From the NCBI GenBank assembly GCA_013289765.1, contig JABCZI010000002.1, positions 248,001-312,000 on the forward strand: DNA of 64,000 nucleotides, given 5' to 3'. The DNA comes from Acidobacteriota bacterium (GTDB lineage: Bacteria > Acidobacteriota > Terriglobia > Terriglobales > Acidobacteriaceae). Under the pieces are notes generated by a model that was given only the letters and a program-made list of their open reading frames with translations, did no database searches and was not told the DNA's origin. A program made the position numbers and the translations under genes. Shown here piece by piece: positions 1 through 46,300 of this stretch (positions are counted from its first letter, which is position 1; each line of letters begins with the position of its first letter).

Positions 1-1190
1 GGATAGAGATCTACTTTCAGGGCTGACAAGAATTCATTCGGATCGCTGACATCGCGCTGCCACTCGACCACCTGTCGCAGCCATGCCAGGCGCTGCTCGT
101 CCTGCGCCGATACCGGGCCGTCTTTGTATTTCCAGTGGGCGGCGATTCCCTCTTCGGCCATCTTGTGCATCTCTTCGGTGCGAATCTGGATTTCAAACGG
201 CGTCCCGTCTTCCGTGATCACCGAAGTATGCAGCGACTGGTAGAAGTTGGGCCGCGGCATGGCGATGAAATCCTTGATGCGCCCCGGGACTGGCCGCCAG
301 ATGTTGTGAATGATGCCGAGCACGGCGTAACAATCCTGCAGCGACCGCGTGACGATGCGCATGGCGAAAAGGTCGTAGACCTGATCGACCGAAATGTGCT
401 GCCGCTGCAACTTCTTATGAATGCTGTAGAGGCGTTTGATCCGGCTATCGACCTTGGCTTGGATGCCCGCTTCTTTCAGCTTGTCGCTGATGATGACCTG
501 CATTTTCGCGAGAAAGACTTCACCCTGCTTGCGGCGCGCGTTGACCGCTTTTTCTACTTGCTCGTAGCCCGAGGGATCGAGAAACAGGAATCCAAGATCT
601 TCGAGTTCCCCGCGAATCTTGCCCATGCCGAGGCGGTGGGCGATAGGAGCATAGATCTCGAGAGTCTCCTCGGCAATCTTCCGCTGGCGGTCGGGATCAA
701 GGTGCTCCAGCGTGCGCATATTGTGCAATCGGTCGGCGAGCTTGATGAGCACCACGCGAATGTCGTCGACCATGGCAAGCATCATCTTGCGCAGGTTTTC
801 GGCCTGCGCCTCTTCACGGGTGGCAAAGTCGATTTTGCTGATCTTGGTGACGCCCTCGACAATATGCGCCACCTGCTCGCCAAACTCCTTGCGGATATCG
901 ACGATGGTGACGGATGTATCTTCGACCGAATCGTGCAGCAGTCCGGCCGCAATCGCGACAGGGTCCATCTTCATCTCGGCGAGAACCAGCGCAACTTCCA
1001 GTGGATGGACAAGATATGGCTCGCCCGAGGCGCGGCTTTGGCCTTCATGATGCTTTAAGGAGTAGTCGTAAGCTTTCTTGACAATGGACAGATCGTCCTG
1101 GGGACGGTTTTCCTGAATCCGCTTCATCAGCTCACGGAACTTGGTTAGCGTGAGAGCGGTGGTCGCGATCTGTTGGCGCAAGCTCGCCAT
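1..1190 (-). CDS. relA/spoT: RelA/SpoT-family (p)ppGpp synthetase/hydrolase, 3' part cut by window edge
   Basis: Makes and/or degrades the stringent-response alarmone (p)ppGpp in the cytoplasm. About 396 N-terminal residues are visible; the gene runs off the left edge. The start at 1190 reads MASLRQQIATTALTL. An HD-type hydrolase domain follows, with HPLEVALVLAEM and then HDSVEDT (metal-binding HD) near residues 80-95. The synthetase domain follows, with the typical RIKRLYSIHKKL and EIQIRTEEMHKMAEEGIAAHW stretches near the window edge. Both domains look intact, so a bifunctional Rel/SpoT enzyme is most likely. The TGS and ACT regulatory domains would lie outside the window. The 269 bases up to the divergent GAF gene hold no other gene. 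Confidence 0.95.
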   Translation of the reverse strand, partial: MASLRQQIATTALTLTKFRELMKRIQENRPQDDLSIVKKAYDYSLKHHEGQSRASGEPYLVHPLEVALVLAEMKMDPVAIAAGLLHDSVEDTSVTIVDIRKEFGEQVAHIVEGVTKISKIDFATREEAQAENLRKMMLAMVDDIRVVLIKLADRLHNMRTLEHLDPDRQRKIAEETLEIYAPIAHRLGMGKIRGELEDLGFLFLDPSGYEQVEKAVNARRKQGEVFLAKMQVIISDKLKEAGIQAKVDSRIKRLYSIHKKLQRQHISVDQVYDLFAMRIVTRSLQDCYAVLGIIHNIWRPVPGRIKDFIAMPRPNFYQSLHTSVITEDGTPFEIQIRTEEMHKMAEEGIAAHWKYKDGPVSAQDEQRLAWLRQVVEWQRDVSDPNEFLSALKVDLY

Positions 1191-3767: not shown

Positions 3768-6002
3768 TCAGTTGGGATCCGAGCGATGCATCTCTTCCTG
3801 CAGTTTCTGCAGAAGCTCGGCGCGCTGTTCGGTGCTCAGCTCCCGTTGTAACTCCTCGAGCGCGAGGGCGACGATGTGATAATGGTGGGCTCCAGCAAAC
3901 TTGGGATCGGTGGTGATGTTGAGCCACAGCTTATGCATCAGCTCGACATCCTGCGGGCGAAGGCGCGGATTGTGCGGACCAATGGCATATTCGCGAACGG
4001 TTCCGTCAGGCGCGCAGACCTCGAGGGTGATGCGCGGACGCGGTTCGGGCAGACGCTCCCAGGCGTCGCCCGTAAGCTTGGCTTGTTCGTCAGACGTGAG
4101 CTTGTTCGAGAGTCCGCAAATCACACGGGAAGACCCGAGCCGTTGCGCCGTTACCATGATGGCTTCGAACACGTCGGTGGCGGGAACCACCAGGAGGGAA
4201 ATCGGCTTCCCCTCTTTTTCGGCGACGGCCACGGCGGCGGTAAAGAGCTCCTGCTCGTAGTGGTCGAAAACCTGGCTGGCTTCCATGACCGCGCTGCCGC
4301 TGAAGCTGTGTTCGCGATGGTAAAGGCGCGCGCTCATCACGACCACGTCCTGCTTGTTGGTGTCGGTATGACCGAGAATGTGGCGCAGGTAATAGAGATT
4401 GCGAGGGTCGCGTACCGCAACCAGAATATTACCCGTGCGCACGCCCATGGCGCCGCTGCCCAATTCCTGATTGCCGTAGACGCGAAACTGATCAAGCTGT
4501 TCCGGCTTGCCATGCCGCTCTTTCGTGACGTGTCGCTCTGAGATCGTGAAGATGGTGAAGAACACGCCGCTAAAAATTACTCCTGCAATCGTCGCTTGAT
4601 ACTTGGTAAATAGATTCACCACGGCGGTGATCAGCAGCACCGCGGAAATAAGAATCAAGCCCACCGGGATCTCGGTTTTCCCGATGTGCAGGTTACCCGG
4701 AACCTTCCAGGCCCGATTGCCGGGCTCGGTAAAGCGCAGCACCAGCACGGCGATGGACTTCATGGCGAAGCTCCAGATCACTCCGAACGCGTAGAGCGCC
4801 GCCAAAACATATACGTTGCCGAGGCTTAGGAAGATGGTGAGCAACTGCATGCCGACGATTAAATTGATGATGCGATAGCTTGTACCGAAGCGGTTATGCG
4901 GCTTCTGAAACCAACTGGTGAGAACTCCGTCTTCCGCAACGCGGTTCAGAACGCCGTTGGCGCCGACTATGGAAGTATTCTGCGCGCCCGCGAGAATAAG
5001 GACACCCACCAACACCACGAACCCATGAAAAAGCAGTTTCAGGCTGGTAGGCCCGACCAGGTACATGGCGATGCCGCCGATGAGGTTGGCGAAATAATCC
5101 GGCCGAACCTTATCGGGAATAATCATCACGGCAAAGAACGACACCAGGGAAGTGAACAGCAAGCTGTAAACGAAAATGACGAGCCCAGTCTTCTCCAGAT
5201 TCTTCAGCTTGGGATGTTCGATCTCGCGGTTGACCTGGGCCAGAGTTTCTTCGCCGCTCATGGCGAGGACGGAGTGTCCGAAGCCGACAAAAAGAATGAT
5301 CCAGGTAATGTGGCTGAACCAGGTTCCGTTGAGCCAGCCCAATGATTCCTTGTTCAGCGGAATCACTCCGGCATGCAGCGGGTTGGGCGGCAACTGGATG
5401 GGGGCGCGCAAGACCGTGATGGTGCACCAGATCAGCAGAATCACTACCATCACCGTGGTGATAGCCATGATTTGCAGCGCCTTCTGGCTGGACTCGTGCA
5501 TGCCCTGGGTATTCTTCCACCAGAAGTAAGCCACCACGATGACGGCAAGCCCGGCGGCAAAGTGATCGTCGGAAAAATTCAGCGGGCGGTGCAGGTACAC
5601 GCCCATATCTTTGATGAAGCCTGCTAAATATTGTCCGGCGGAGACCGCGCTGATGGGTCCGGTCAACACATAATCGAAGAGCAGCGCCGAAACGGAAAAC
5701 TTGGCCAAAGTACCACCCATGGCCTCCTTGACCACGCGGTAAACCCCACCGCGGACGAACATGCTGCTCGATTCAATGTAGAGCGCCCGGACCGCGTAGC
5801 TGAAAAGCATGACTGCCAGGATGAACCAGGGAGCGCTCTTACCGATCACCTTCTCCGCATCGCCGCCAGCGTAGTAAGCGGACGACGCGAGGTCAGACAG
5901 AACGATGGCGGAGGCCCGCCAGAACGAGATAAACGTCAACATCACCGTGGTGGCGACGAAGACTTTTATTACCGGCTTTGACCCTTCAACCGATGTGGCC
6001 AT
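3768..6002 (-). CDS. APC-superfamily permease with C-terminal UspA-like cytosolic region
   Basis: A 744-residue transporter. About 12 hydrophobic segments fill residues 10-490. The first helix carries LSDLASSAYYAGGDAE, and FVRGGVYRVVKEAMGGTLAK follows TM2, the pattern of APC amino-acid/polyamine and KimA-type potassium permeases. After the membrane part, NILVAVRDPRNLYYLRHIL at about residue 525 begins a region resembling a universal stress protein domain. A charged helical tail of about 70 residues (LEELQRELSTEQRAELLQKL) ends the protein. This layout recalls KimA (YdaO), but identity to it cannot be judged by eye, so substrate is open between amino acids and potassium. It stands alone between a convergent epimerase gene and the RDD gene. 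Confidence 0.82.
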   Translation of the reverse strand: MATSVEGSKPVIKVFVATTVMLTFISFWRASAIVLSDLASSAYYAGGDAEKVIGKSAPWFILAVMLFSYAVRALYIESSSMFVRGGVYRVVKEAMGGTLAKFSVSALLFDYVLTGPISAVSAGQYLAGFIKDMGVYLHRPLNFSDDHFAAGLAVIVVAYFWWKNTQGMHESSQKALQIMAITTVMVVILLIWCTITVLRAPIQLPPNPLHAGVIPLNKESLGWLNGTWFSHITWIILFVGFGHSVLAMSGEETLAQVNREIEHPKLKNLEKTGLVIFVYSLLFTSLVSFFAVMIIPDKVRPDYFANLIGGIAMYLVGPTSLKLLFHGFVVLVGVLILAGAQNTSIVGANGVLNRVAEDGVLTSWFQKPHNRFGTSYRIINLIVGMQLLTIFLSLGNVYVLAALYAFGVIWSFAMKSIAVLVLRFTEPGNRAWKVPGNLHIGKTEIPVGLILISAVLLITAVVNLFTKYQATIAGVIFSGVFFTIFTISERHVTKERHGKPEQLDQFRVYGNQELGSGAMGVRTGNILVAVRDPRNLYYLRHILGHTDTNKQDVVVMSARLYHREHSFSGSAVMEASQVFDHYEQELFTAAVAVAEKEGKPISLLVVPATDVFEAIMVTAQRLGSSRVICGLSNKLTSDEQAKLTGDAWERLPEPRPRITLEVCAPDGTVREYAIGPHNPRLRPQDVELMHKLWLNITTDPKFAGAHHYHIVALALEELQRELSTEQRAELLQKLQEEMHRSDPN

Positions 6003-6118
6003 TATTCAGAGGAGTGCAGAATGTGTTTCTAAACCCTTTTGAAGATAGCATAGGGCAAGGCGGGGCCGGGAGCGAGAGTGGCTCAGGGGAATGGATTCCT
6101 GAAAATGACTGCGGGCAT

Positions 6119-7270
6119 TTACTGTTCCTGCCGCTTCTTTGGCGCCAAGTATGTGTGAGTGATGCGGTCATGCCAGCACAGGGCGTCCTCATCAAGAAAG
6201 ACCCAGGCGTATCCCATGCCGAGTGAAACTGCTGACAGGAAGGAAGCAAGCACCCGCCAGCGGCGAAGCCGGCGGCTCGCAGGAGTGCCATTGAAGCGGG
6301 TCAATTCCAGCTTCGCCAGCCGCAGCCCCGGCGTCGAGCCCGAGTAAACGACAAGCAAGTATTGATAGGACGCCCAGAACAATGCGGCCAAGCCGACGCT
6401 GAGCCCCGCAAGTTGAAGTCGGGGAGGCTGGATTGCGGTCAGCTTCCAAAAGATGGCGGCGAACAAAGCGCAGGCCGACCCAATGATCACAGCGTCAATG
6501 GCCGCGGAAAAAATGCGCCGCGCCAGAGGCGCACTCTGCAGCGGGATATCGATGCCCGGACGTTTTTCTAACTCGGGTTGGCTGGCAGGTTCAATTGTGA
6601 TGCCGCCCAGAGCAGGCGCCGGGGGGACAACTTCCGGAGCCTCCAGGATGCGCGGACGGTCCATTACGGGCTCCGCCAATTCGTCGAGCGGCGCTGCCGG
6701 TGGCGTCCACCAACGCGGGAACTCAATAATCTTTGCCGATGTGGGAGTTATTGGCGTCGAGGGTTGTTCCGAATCGCCGGAGCGAGCGCTTGCTGGGCTT
6801 TGCCGCAGGTCCGGCATTTCTGCAGGCGCAGGAGCGCTGTCCGCGAAGTTATCCAACGCCAGAGCGTGATGCGAAGCGGCCCCGATACTTTGCGAGAATG
6901 GAGGAGCTTCTAGCGAAGAGCTGGCGGTGTTGCGAGCGGGACCTTCCTCCTCGAAACGCAAGCGCAGCGATGGATATCGGGGCGGACGCGGCTTGCGCTT
7001 GGATTGATAACGATTCAACCGGACAGCAACTTCATCGCGCCACGCAGGAGTAGTCGCAGCAGCAGCCTCACCGTCAGCCTCCTTGCCGGTGCTCAACGAC
7101 ACTTCCGCGACCGGAGGAACGCTGGAGCCTTCACTTCGCGGTGTCTCGCCATCTGGTTCTGGCGCTGCGGCGGCCAAACCGGCGTCGTTGTCAGCTAACC
7201 AGCGGGGTGCATGGGTTGGCTCCGCGGCGGTCGAGCAGCGGCAAATGTCACCACAAATCGGACAAGGCAT
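6119..7270 (-). CDS. RDD-family membrane protein with N-terminal cysteine cluster
   Basis: About 383 residues from the start chosen at 7270 (MPCPICGDICRC), which puts a CPxCGxxCxC zinc-ribbon-like cluster at the very N-terminus. A long proline- and alanine-rich low-complexity linker (about 220 residues) follows. The C-terminal third is an RDD domain: APLARRIFSAAIDAVIIGSA holds the R and D signature in TM1, then LFWASYQYLLVVYSGSTPGLRLAKLEL, then the last helix ending in HDRITHTYLAPK. RDD proteins are poorly characterised membrane proteins; some are proposed ion exchangers. The unusual feature is the cytosolic Cys cluster joined by a long disordered linker. It is divergent from lptD. Confidence 0.8.
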   Translation of the reverse strand: MPCPICGDICRCSTAAEPTHAPRWLADNDAGLAAAAPEPDGETPRSEGSSVPPVAEVSLSTGKEADGEAAAATTPAWRDEVAVRLNRYQSKRKPRPPRYPSLRLRFEEEGPARNTASSSLEAPPFSQSIGAASHHALALDNFADSAPAPAEMPDLRQSPASARSGDSEQPSTPITPTSAKIIEFPRWWTPPAAPLDELAEPVMDRPRILEAPEVVPPAPALGGITIEPASQPELEKRPGIDIPLQSAPLARRIFSAAIDAVIIGSACALFAAIFWKLTAIQPPRLQLAGLSVGLAALFWASYQYLLVVYSGSTPGLRLAKLELTRFNGTPASRRLRRWRVLASFLSAVSLGMGYAWVFLDEDALCWHDRITHTYLAPKKRQEQ

Positions 7271-42931: not shown

Positions 42932-44128
42932 GTGCTGACCGAGCGATTTGAATTCGCGCCTCAGAGTGACGCGAGAATTTTCGCAACGGTCCCGGCCGCT
43001 CCCGCTGTATTCCTTCTTCGTGGCGACGACGCGCAAAGCCAGCCTTACGTCAGCAAGACTGCAAACCTGCGCCGCCGCTTGCAACGCCTGCTTGGCCCGG
43101 TCGATGAACGCACGAAAAAGCTGAACCTGCGCGATCGCGTTCGCTGGATTGAATACACGTCCACGTCCTCCGACTTCGAGTCTGGCTTTTTGCTCTACCA
43201 GGTCCTCCGCCAAACGTTCCCGAAAACGTATGCCGAACGTTTGCGCTTCCGCTTCGCGCCGCTGGTGAAGCTCCATCTCGAAAACCAATATCCCCGCGCT
43301 TCCGTCACCACGCGAATGGGTCGCCTGAATGGCCGCGCACTTTATTACGGCCCGTTCCAAGCCCGCACCGCAGCCGAGAAGTTTATGAACGACTCGCTAG
43401 ACTTCTTCAAGATGCGGCGCTGCGTCGATGACCTTCATCCCGATCCCAAGTTTCCCGGCTGCATCTATTCCGAAATGAAGATGTGCCTGGCACCCTGCTT
43501 CAAAGGATGCACGGACGAAGAATATTCCGGCGAAGTAACCCGCGTGCAAGCGTATTTCGATTCCGGAGGAGAATCTCTGGCTCGCGAGTTTTCAGCGCAA
43601 CGTGAAGCTGCGTCGGCGAACCTGGCCTTCGAAGACGCGGCCGCCATTCACATCCGGCTGGAAAAACTCAAGCCTGTCTTGAGCCAATTTCCAGAGATCG
43701 TCCGCCGCCTCGACCGCTTTTCGGCGCTGATCGTTCAACCATGCCTTAAGCCGGACTCAGTCACCTTCTTCCTGGTGAGAAACGCGGCCATCGCCGGCCA
43801 AGCCGCATTCTGCATTCAACCCGCGGAACACACCAAATCGCAATCCATGGAATCGCGAGTGCTCGCGATCCTCGATTCATTTCCGCCCGCGAAAGCGCTC
43901 CCGTCATTGGAAACCATGGAGCATCTCGCGCTGCTCAAGCGCTGGTACTACCGCGGCAGCCGCGTCGGCGAAATCTTTCTTGCCGACAGCAAAAATATTT
44001 TCCCCATGCGCCGAATCGTGCGCGGCATTGGCCGCGTCTTAAGAGGCGAGAAACGGGAGGACGAGTCTCCCCCGCAGATTCAGAGCAGCAACGATTCGTA
44101 TCGGGGTATGCCTTCAGGCATACCGTAA
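42932..44128 (+). CDS. UvrC-like protein without a clear GIY-YIG signature or RNase H-like half
   Basis: 398 residues, about two thirds of a normal UvrC (about 600). GTG start at 42932. The N-terminal nuclease region is degenerate: VFLLRGDD replaces the GIY/GVY strand and YVSKTANLRRRL replaces YVGKAKNLRRR, losing the glycine. The four UvrC iron-sulfur cysteines appear kept (RRCVDDLHPDP, then GCIYSEMKMCLAPC; spacing 12-7-3). The UVR-motif region (ANLAFEDAAAIHIRLEKLK) is also present. The C-terminal endonuclease and HhH domains are absent, and the last 15 residues are encoded by palindromic repeat DNA. It may bind UvrB or DNA without the usual incision. Confidence 0.82.
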   Translation: MLTERFEFAPQSDARIFATVPAAPAVFLLRGDDAQSQPYVSKTANLRRRLQRLLGPVDERTKKLNLRDRVRWIEYTSTSSDFESGFLLYQVLRQTFPKTYAERLRFRFAPLVKLHLENQYPRASVTTRMGRLNGRALYYGPFQARTAAEKFMNDSLDFFKMRRCVDDLHPDPKFPGCIYSEMKMCLAPCFKGCTDEEYSGEVTRVQAYFDSGGESLAREFSAQREAASANLAFEDAAAIHIRLEKLKPVLSQFPEIVRRLDRFSALIVQPCLKPDSVTFFLVRNAAIAGQAAFCIQPAEHTKSQSMESRVLAILDSFPPAKALPSLETMEHLALLKRWYYRGSRVGEIFLADSKNIFPMRRIVRGIGRVLRGEKREDESPPQIQSSNDSYRGMPSGIP

Positions 44129-44731: not shown

Positions 44732-46300
44732 TCAACTGGCTCTGCTTGTAAGCGCTTCATTATTCTTCACGCTCCGTTCCGGCCGCTTCCGGAACACGAC
44801 TTTTACTCCCTCGCGCCAGCGCTCGTCAATCCCCACAAACTCCCATTCAATTTCCGGCGAGAGATAGCGCAGCAGCGTATCGGTCGAGGGATGCACGCGC
44901 AACGCCGGGGCTACCAGAAACAGCAGTGGCTTTTCTGGCGATAATTCGCGCCCTTCGAAATATCCAAAGCGGGGGAATTCTGCGCGCGCATGATGCCATT
45001 CGACACGCGCCCAGTAATCCAACCCTTGCAGCGGCAAGTGGATATCTTCATCTGCCTTCAATTCCACCACCGCGAGCCGCCCCTGATGCGTCGTGGTGAG
45101 CACGTCGATCATGGCCCGGTCGGAAGCAGAGAATGCGGGAACCTGCGAATACCGGCAGGAAGTATCCAGCCGGTCATCGATCACATTTACATCGCCCACT
45201 ACCAGCGCCTCCAGCCAACGCTCCGGACGCAGACGCCACAACGGATGCCGCCGTGGCCCATAGGGATGACGCGTATCGCGCAAGCAGTGCGCCAGTTCCG
45301 CAAATTCGTCCTGGTTGCGGATCTCCAGAACCCGCTCTTCCGCGCCCACCCCGAAAACAATTTCTTCAATACTGCGAAACGACCCGGGCACGCACCCCAC
45401 ACGCGCCCGCGCAAACTCCAACCCGCGCCAGCGGAAAGCAATCTCCGCCGCCGATAACACGGCCACCTCGCAATTTGGCAAAACCTGCTGCATCTGCTCA
45501 ATCGAATCCTTGAACCGCTCGCGCGCCGCGTCTTCGTTAGTTGCATGCAGCAGCCTCGTTGCCACGTTTCCGCGATCCGCGCAGTCAATCTCCACGAGCG
45601 AGTCTTCCCGCTCGTCGAGTTCAAACAGCGACCACTTGGCCGCATCCCGGTTCAAATTCGCCATGCGCTCCCGGACCAAAGCCGAGCTTCCTTTCGGAAC
45701 AAATAACTTCAATCCCTCAATCAGTACATTCGCGGCCTGCGCCCTCCGGCAAACATCGAGCCACAGAATGCCGAAAGTGAGAGCAGCGTCGACAGAAGAT
45801 TGAGTTTCCTGACTGTTCACTCCGAGCACAGCGAATGCTGAGCGGCCCTGCTGCATCACGCCTCTGGTATAGACGGGACCAAATGATTTTTCCAGATCTA
45901 CACCACTCGTCAGCTTGGTAATCTTGAAGTCGGCAAAGTGGCGTTCCAAAGTCCGTCGGAGTTTTTGCTCGTAAGCGGCCCGCGCGGCTCGTCGTACAGT
46001 GGGCGAACGGCGATCCCGCTCCCGGCAAATTTCCAGCCTCGACGGACGCGCCTGCCCCAGCCGCTGCACGGCCAGCCGGAGCGTGCCATTCTTGACCTCC
46101 GCTTCCAACACTCGCCGCACCGCGTTCCGCTCCGCCGACCACAAGTGCAACAGGCAGCGGTTGTACTCACCCGAAATCGAATACTTGGATTGCGCCAGAT
46201 CAAACGCGACCGCGCCGTTTTCCAGCACCAACGCTCCCGCAGCCTCGCTGAGAAAGTCTTGCACCGTACGAGTCAGGGTTTGCGGCGTCACCGTCGGCAT
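44732..46300 (-). CDS. Uncharacterised protein with C-terminal PD-(D/E)XK nuclease-like core
   Basis: 522 residues, no signal or membrane segment. Near the C-terminus, RAMIDVLTTTHQGRLAVVEL continues into KADED and LPLQGLDYWARV. This gives Asp399-x13-Glu413-x-Lys415 with Gln425 in the next helix, the pattern of PD-(D/E)XK nucleases such as NucS and restriction-type enzymes. An upstream helix RPERWLEALVV (about 359-368) may supply the first acidic residue. The first 350 residues are Arg- and Glu-rich, with FAVLGVNSQETQSSVDAAL, and match nothing I recognise. A DNA repair or defence role is inferred from the fold and from the UvrC-like and DinB neighbours. Start MPTVTPQTLTRTVQDF is plausible. Confidence 0.75.
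   Translation of the reverse strand: MPTVTPQTLTRTVQDFLSEAAGALVLENGAVAFDLAQSKYSISGEYNRCLLHLWSAERNAVRRVLEAEVKNGTLRLAVQRLGQARPSRLEICRERDRRSPTVRRAARAAYEQKLRRTLERHFADFKITKLTSGVDLEKSFGPVYTRGVMQQGRSAFAVLGVNSQETQSSVDAALTFGILWLDVCRRAQAANVLIEGLKLFVPKGSSALVRERMANLNRDAAKWSLFELDEREDSLVEIDCADRGNVATRLLHATNEDAARERFKDSIEQMQQVLPNCEVAVLSAAEIAFRWRGLEFARARVGCVPGSFRSIEEIVFGVGAEERVLEIRNQDEFAELAHCLRDTRHPYGPRRHPLWRLRPERWLEALVVGDVNVIDDRLDTSCRYSQVPAFSASDRAMIDVLTTTHQGRLAVVELKADEDIHLPLQGLDYWARVEWHHARAEFPRFGYFEGRELSPEKPLLFLVAPALRVHPSTDTLLRYLSPEIEWEFVGIDERWREGVKVVFRKRPERSVKNNEALTSRAS

Follow-up and report, generated by a model that had tools for sequence, protein, structure and literature searches.

A NucS/RecB-branch nuclease family of Acidobacteriota that appears to join a live PD-(D/E)XK fold and a dead one in a single chain

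The window analysed here, a stretch of 64,000 nucleotides from an Acidobacteriota genome, carries a chromosomal, single-copy gene that probably encodes a stand-alone, vertically inherited, metal-dependent endonuclease of the NucS/RecB branch, in which a C-terminal domain would cut and an N-terminal half would recognise the DNA, with damaged DNA as substrate, and which would be added to standard repair. Members of the phylum Acidobacteriota rank with the most common bacteria of soil, and the gene specifies a near-core nuclease of one class of this phylum for which neither Pfam nor NCBIfam has an entry. The 522-residue ORF of the preliminary description is real; it lies on the minus strand, a point on which that description was silent, and homologues sampled from genus, family, class and phylum align with its product over the full length. 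The features of the gene and of its product are the following:

44732..46300 (stop codon included), minus strand: complete ORF of 522 aa with an ATG start, predicted stand-alone nuclease of about 59 kDa
46010..46300, minus strand: residues 1-97, N-terminal helix and seven-stranded, barrel-like beta domain (AlphaFold models; VIA rows to EndoMS/NucS over 2..232 and to YojF over 4..101)
45581..46003, minus strand: residues 100-240, second fold of PD-(D/E)XK type, without D, E and K at the active-site positions, a putative pseudo-nuclease domain (fold matches and residue check)
45266..45568, minus strand: residues 245-345, alpha-beta connector with a conserved G293-L-E-F-A-R motif
44786..45244, minus strand: residues 353-505, predicted catalytic NucS/RecB-type PD-(D/E)XK nuclease domain (conservation, profile and fold matches, AlphaFold model)
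45221..45223, minus strand: E360 codon, equivalent to E127 of Pyrococcus abyssi NucS (invariant in 63/63; alignment to NucS)
45104..45106, minus strand: D399 codon, NucS D160 (conservation and alignment to NucS)
45056..45064, minus strand: E413-L414-K415 codons, NucS E174 and K176 (conservation and alignment to NucS)
45014..45028, minus strand: Q425 to Y429 codons, QxxxY motif, NucS Q187 and Y191 (conservation; matching spacing)

A PD-(D/E)XK nuclease core had been proposed from D399, E413, K415 and Q425, and these residues are indeed found at those positions, with E360 in the preceding helix and Y429 completing the QxxxY motif. Taken alone, a D-x8-20-[DE]xK motif is weak evidence, as it arises by chance in 66% of shuffled versions of the protein and occurs in 18 of the 29 long ORFs of the window; the complete D..ExK..QxxxY motif appears in 0.1% of the shuffled versions and in a single one of these ORFs. 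The decisive evidence comes from homologues gathered from genus, family, class and phylum, aligned as 63 sequences with identity down to 22%, in which E360, D399, E413, K415, Q425, Y429, W430, F448, P465 and W495 are invariant. Since the first six of these, the catalytic positions, are retained in 63/63 rows, the nuclease core cannot be put down to chance, and the conservation of D399, E413 and K415 in homologues, set beforehand as a refutation test, proved complete. Compared with solved structures, the 63-row profile matched P. abyssi NucS (2VLD) with an E of 0.006 and Card1 with an E of 0.07, the links to NucS by profile being weak and mutually consistent. In the alignment to 2VLD, E360, D399, E413 and K415 fall on NucS E127, D160, E174 and K176, and the spacing of Q425 and Y429 matches the QxxxY motif of NucS Q187 and Y191, which gives a one-for-one correspondence with the archaeal active site of D160, E174, K176, E127, Q187 and Y191 known from the literature (PMC7343888). 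The site thus has the NucS/RecB-type layout of the PD-(D/E)XK superfamily, namely a helix E, D, ExK and QxxxY in an alpha-beta-beta-beta-alpha-beta core, and the convergence of these residues on one site was judged from the topology of the model and from the NucS alignment. On alignment and model together, the C-terminal domain is confirmed as a predicted PD-(D/E)XK nuclease core.

AlphaFold2, supplied with 20 sequences of 58-86% identity, gave a full-length model with a mean pLDDT of 79 and a pTM of 0.63, and the N-terminal 248 residues modelled alone (pLDDT 82.7) displayed the same elements as in the full-length model. Residues 1-97 are modelled as a helix followed by seven strands, residues 100-240 as a helix, three strands, a helix and a strand, and residues 353-505 in this same alpha-beta-beta-beta-alpha-beta order, here with the catalytic residues. 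The preliminary description knew of no family to which the first 350 residues could be assigned, which stands by sequence, with no match for residues 1-350 in Pfam, NCBIfam, PHROGs or PDB, and falls by fold, given the PD-(D/E)XK fold at 100-240. In the fold comparison that it had proposed as a check, both the nuclease domain and residues 104-240 match PD-(D/E)XK structures, those of residues 104-240 including EndoMS and PaqCI. With a second aligner, residues 104-240 scored Z 9.1-9.2 against EndoMS, 9.1 against PaqCI, 8.5-8.6 against the XisH family and 8.2-8.4 against BspD6I, and further structural matches comprised Cap4, Shedu, MspJI and McrC. Although a Z of 7 to 9 is modest on the scale of this aligner, we read the segment as PD-(D/E)XK because the best rows are almost all of one fold. 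Foldseek returned no match below E 0.001 for the N-terminal fragment, and the acetyl-CoA carboxylase rows of the fold search were taken as unrelated, their Foldseek TM-scores being very low and their rmsd high. Across the family, D, E and K are replaced at the expected catalytic positions of the 100-240 domain by R, by G/A and by N or another residue, and because of this replacement the second domain is apparently catalytically dead. An internal tandem duplication found no support at the sequence level, where the scores of profile comparisons did not exceed those obtained after shuffling or reversing the columns. The fold kinship of residues 1-97, either with the N-terminal domain of NucS or with YojF-like proteins, is uncertain: in VIA, residues 2..232 align in order with EndoMS with an rmsd of 11-16 A, and YojF (4..101) is also similar to the model.

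In the class, 159 of the 179 high-quality genomes sampled contain the gene, usually as a single copy. The distribution outside the class is patchy in Acidobacteriota, a profile search across the phylum being positive in 90 of 241 sampled genomes, about 20 of these being weak matches confined to the nuclease core; a single-sequence query against genome contigs matched only in Acidobacteriota, and searches of plasmid, phage and viral-contig collections gave no family match. Pairwise distances of the nuclease track those of the neighbouring TldD (Mantel rho 0.95, with 0/2000 permutations as high) and comparison with close relatives gave a dN/dS of 0.05-0.09 at nearly saturated synonymous sites; inheritance of the family is vertical, and purifying selection acts on it. 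Broken or partially deleted versions of the gene occur in some relatives, and the gene is therefore dispensable and not essential. At one locus (L074, 5985-6380) a remnant was observed in which residues of about 1-80 are joined directly to about 472-510 with synteny intact; the deletion is internal and clean, removes some 390 codons (residues about 80-470) and shows that the gene is open to loss. In another genome (G477, locus L150) the family appears split in two overlapping frames on the plus strand, at 5311-6108 and about 6083-6637. The first frame (265 aa) covers the N-terminal part and the second (about 184 aa) is a nuclease ORF of its own, in which the catalytic residues are intact; the split is either a frameshift or a two-subunit version.

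The UvrC-like and DinB-like neighbours had been taken as a clue to function, a reading that did not survive. TldD, which lies upstream of the nuclease in the window genome, DinB_2 and the UvrC-like gene remain close to the nuclease only within the family to which the window belongs, and elsewhere each lineage has other neighbours, most of them metabolic or unrelated genes. Of the spread and neighbour conservation to which the preliminary description had looked, the former is wide within the class, and no partner gene is conserved across the phylum, where only lineage-specific ones (TldD, CutA1, a sigma-factor-like gene, a GDSL lipase) were found. The UvrC-like gene (42932-44128, plus strand) is a truncated paralogue of 398 aa covering the N-terminal part of UvrC, the full UvrC sitting on another contig of the same genome, and the DinB-like neighbour matches PF12867 DinB_2, a metalloenzyme family distinct from DNA polymerase IV. 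A functional tie to UvrC or DinB was rejected on these grounds, and with conservation limited to close relatives and one of the neighbours misread, the neighbour argument carries no weight. The truncated UvrC-like gene is itself kept in several relatives of the family, and six genomes belonging to one order have, after the nuclease and in the same orientation, a gene for a protein of about 290 aa. In 11 of 12 checked genomes of one subgroup, the nuclease is immediately preceded by a GDSL lipase/acylhydrolase gene, a type commonly annotated as lysophospholipase L1, which mostly overlaps the nuclease start, and the two genes form a possible operon. The genes concerned are located as follows:

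L117, 7491-8372, plus strand: protein of about 290 aa with no Pfam match, also near the nuclease in L058, L115, L118, L120 and L121
L142, 7462-8205, minus strand; L148, 4922-5719, plus strand; L176-L185: GDSL lipase/acylhydrolase gene, examples

In soil metagenomes of the Antarctic Dry Valleys, a NucS-like cluster (Cluster 2) has been described as metagenome-only, with some N-terminally extended proteins of >500 aa that resemble NucS mainly over the last 200 residues and, in 4/4 contigs examined, a lysophospholipase gene directly upstream (PMC10140301). One of its proteins, DV-NucS (Ga0136640_100017415), of 58.8 kDa, cut duplexes containing uracil or abasic sites and degraded ssDNA, activities seen after 18 h and reported without active-site mutants (PMC10140301). 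The family of the window has a median mass of 57.8 kDa, exceeds 500 aa and resembles NucS only in the C-terminal 200 residues, and among subgroup members NucS_C is a frequent weak top Pfam match; the upstream GDSL/lysophospholipase gene is present in 11/12 loci of the one subgroup and absent in the window genome. Matched in this way by description, that is by size, C-terminal NucS similarity and upstream GDSL lipase, DV-NucS probably belongs to this family. The claim that the enzyme is undescribed consequently holds with respect to Pfam and NCBIfam and fails in another respect, as one probable member has already been expressed and assayed (PMC10140301).

We hypothesize that the C-terminal domain (353-505) hydrolyses DNA in a Mg- or Mn-dependent manner via E360, D399, E413, K415, Q425 and Y429, whereas the N-terminal half, composed of the beta domain and the dead PD-(D/E)XK fold, would most likely bind and recognise DNA. 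The dead domain may take the place of a second subunit, such that one strand is cut, and likely substrates would be damaged or abnormal DNA, e.g. deaminated or abasic sites and single-stranded regions. The active-site residues, the spread of the family, its vertical inheritance and the predicted layout are shown by the data above, and the kinship with DV-NucS has indirect support; the substrate, the role of the dead domain and the cellular role are what we infer, and in its most specific form the proposal is a tentative one: a single-chain repair endonuclease in which the dead domain replaces one subunit of a NucS-like dimer, so that a single strand is nicked at abasic sites or at deaminated or distorted bases, in an accessory excision route beside MutSL, UDG and AP endonuclease. 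The window genome encodes MutL, two UDG-family proteins, Xth, UvrC and an AddAB/RecB-type nuclease, and because all of these coexist with the nuclease we regard it as an addition to standard repair; MutL is also found in nearly all relatives checked, and a replacement of MutSL by the nuclease is ruled out by its presence in the same genomes. The same inventory counts against the repair reading, in that no repair gap demands the nuclease, as do the dispensability of the gene and its PDC-S11 matches described next.

The preliminary description had left the choice between repair and defence. A single-gene anti-phage nuclease akin to PDC-S11, Shedu or Card1-type effectors would agree with the best single-sequence profile matches, which are to PADLOC PDC-S11 models (52-59 of the 63 members, the upper figure being the one that speaks for defence; best 6e-12), and with the similarity of the nuclease-domain fold to SduA, Card1 and Can2. 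Nevertheless, in the window protein the PDC-S11 matches span 44-80 of 347-379 positions and are confined to the nuclease core, and defence genes are typically patchy and mobile, whereas this gene is vertically inherited, near-universal across the class, in synteny with TldD and absent from the plasmids, phages and viral contigs searched. We consider defence improbable, and repair or housekeeping is favored because the gene is near-universal in the class, vertically inherited, absent from the searched mobile DNA and stand-alone.

Two further functions would keep the enzyme within DNA metabolism. The QxxxY motif is typical of RecB-type nucleases and DV-NucS was reported to degrade ssDNA (PMC10140301), as expected for a general nuclease processing DNA ends or single strands in recombination or DNA uptake with RecB-like action; this is rather unlikely in a genome that already has AddAB/RecB-type nucleases, and no helicase or recombination gene is linked to the nuclease across the phylum. 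A NucS-like mismatch-repair enzyme working with the replication clamp would account for the complete NucS-type active site and for a certain resemblance in fold between residues 1-240 and EndoMS. The presence of MutL argues against it, as do the lack of a QxxLxF-like clamp-binding motif within the last 40 residues of the 63 members and the profile scores, which at best reach 16.2 bits for PF01939 (curated cut-off 24) and 21.1 bits for PRK04247 (cut-off 216), the window protein itself having no match to the canonical NucS profile; we regard this role as quite unlikely. By score, architecture and clamp motif, the family is not NucS proper, even if it may work in a NucS-like manner, and no true NucS was found elsewhere in the window genome. 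In one genome (G327), ORFs of 528-574 aa at several places on contigs C1 and C2 gave five weak matches of NucS_C type that are almost identical to one another, possibly a multi-copy mobile element. If the repair proposal is true, an excision-type endonuclease has been retained in this class beside the standard ones; the orphan enzyme DV-NucS gains a probable host group, and function becomes testable in culturable Acidobacteriota.

Compared with NucS/EndoMS (PF01939; PDB 2VLD, 5GKE, 5GKJ), the family has in common the six active-site residues, their order and a C-terminal RecB-like nuclease domain. NucS/EndoMS comprises about 240 aa in two domains, a DNA-binding N-terminal domain and the nuclease, whereas the window protein of 522 aa contains in addition the putative pseudo-nuclease fold and the connector and coexists with MutL. 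With DV-NucS it shares a mass of about 59 kDa, an unmatched N-terminal extension and, in one subgroup, the upstream GDSL/lysophospholipase gene; the study of DV-NucS neither tied it to an Acidobacteriota gene family nor reported a dead second nuclease fold (PMC10140301). The C-terminal half of the CRISPR ancillary nucleases Card1/Can2 (DUF1887) superposes on residues 245-506 with Z 5.8-7; the window protein has no family match to a CARF domain, its N-terminal model being a beta domain and a PD-(D/E)XK fold, and no CRISPR genes were seen adjoining it. Likewise, the likeness to Shedu (SduA)/DUF4263 is one of fold, with no Pfam or PADLOC match among the 63 members. The phage-defence candidates of PADLOC PDC-S11 have a similar nuclease core, from which the present family differs in being vertical and near-universal in its class instead of patchy. 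Live and dead PD-(D/E)XK-type domains are also paired in XPF-ERCC1 and in RecC, but in the window protein both domains are predicted in one chain, with no helicase and no shared sequence. As modelled, this union of a live nuclease fold with a dead one is a new domain arrangement in a known superfamily.
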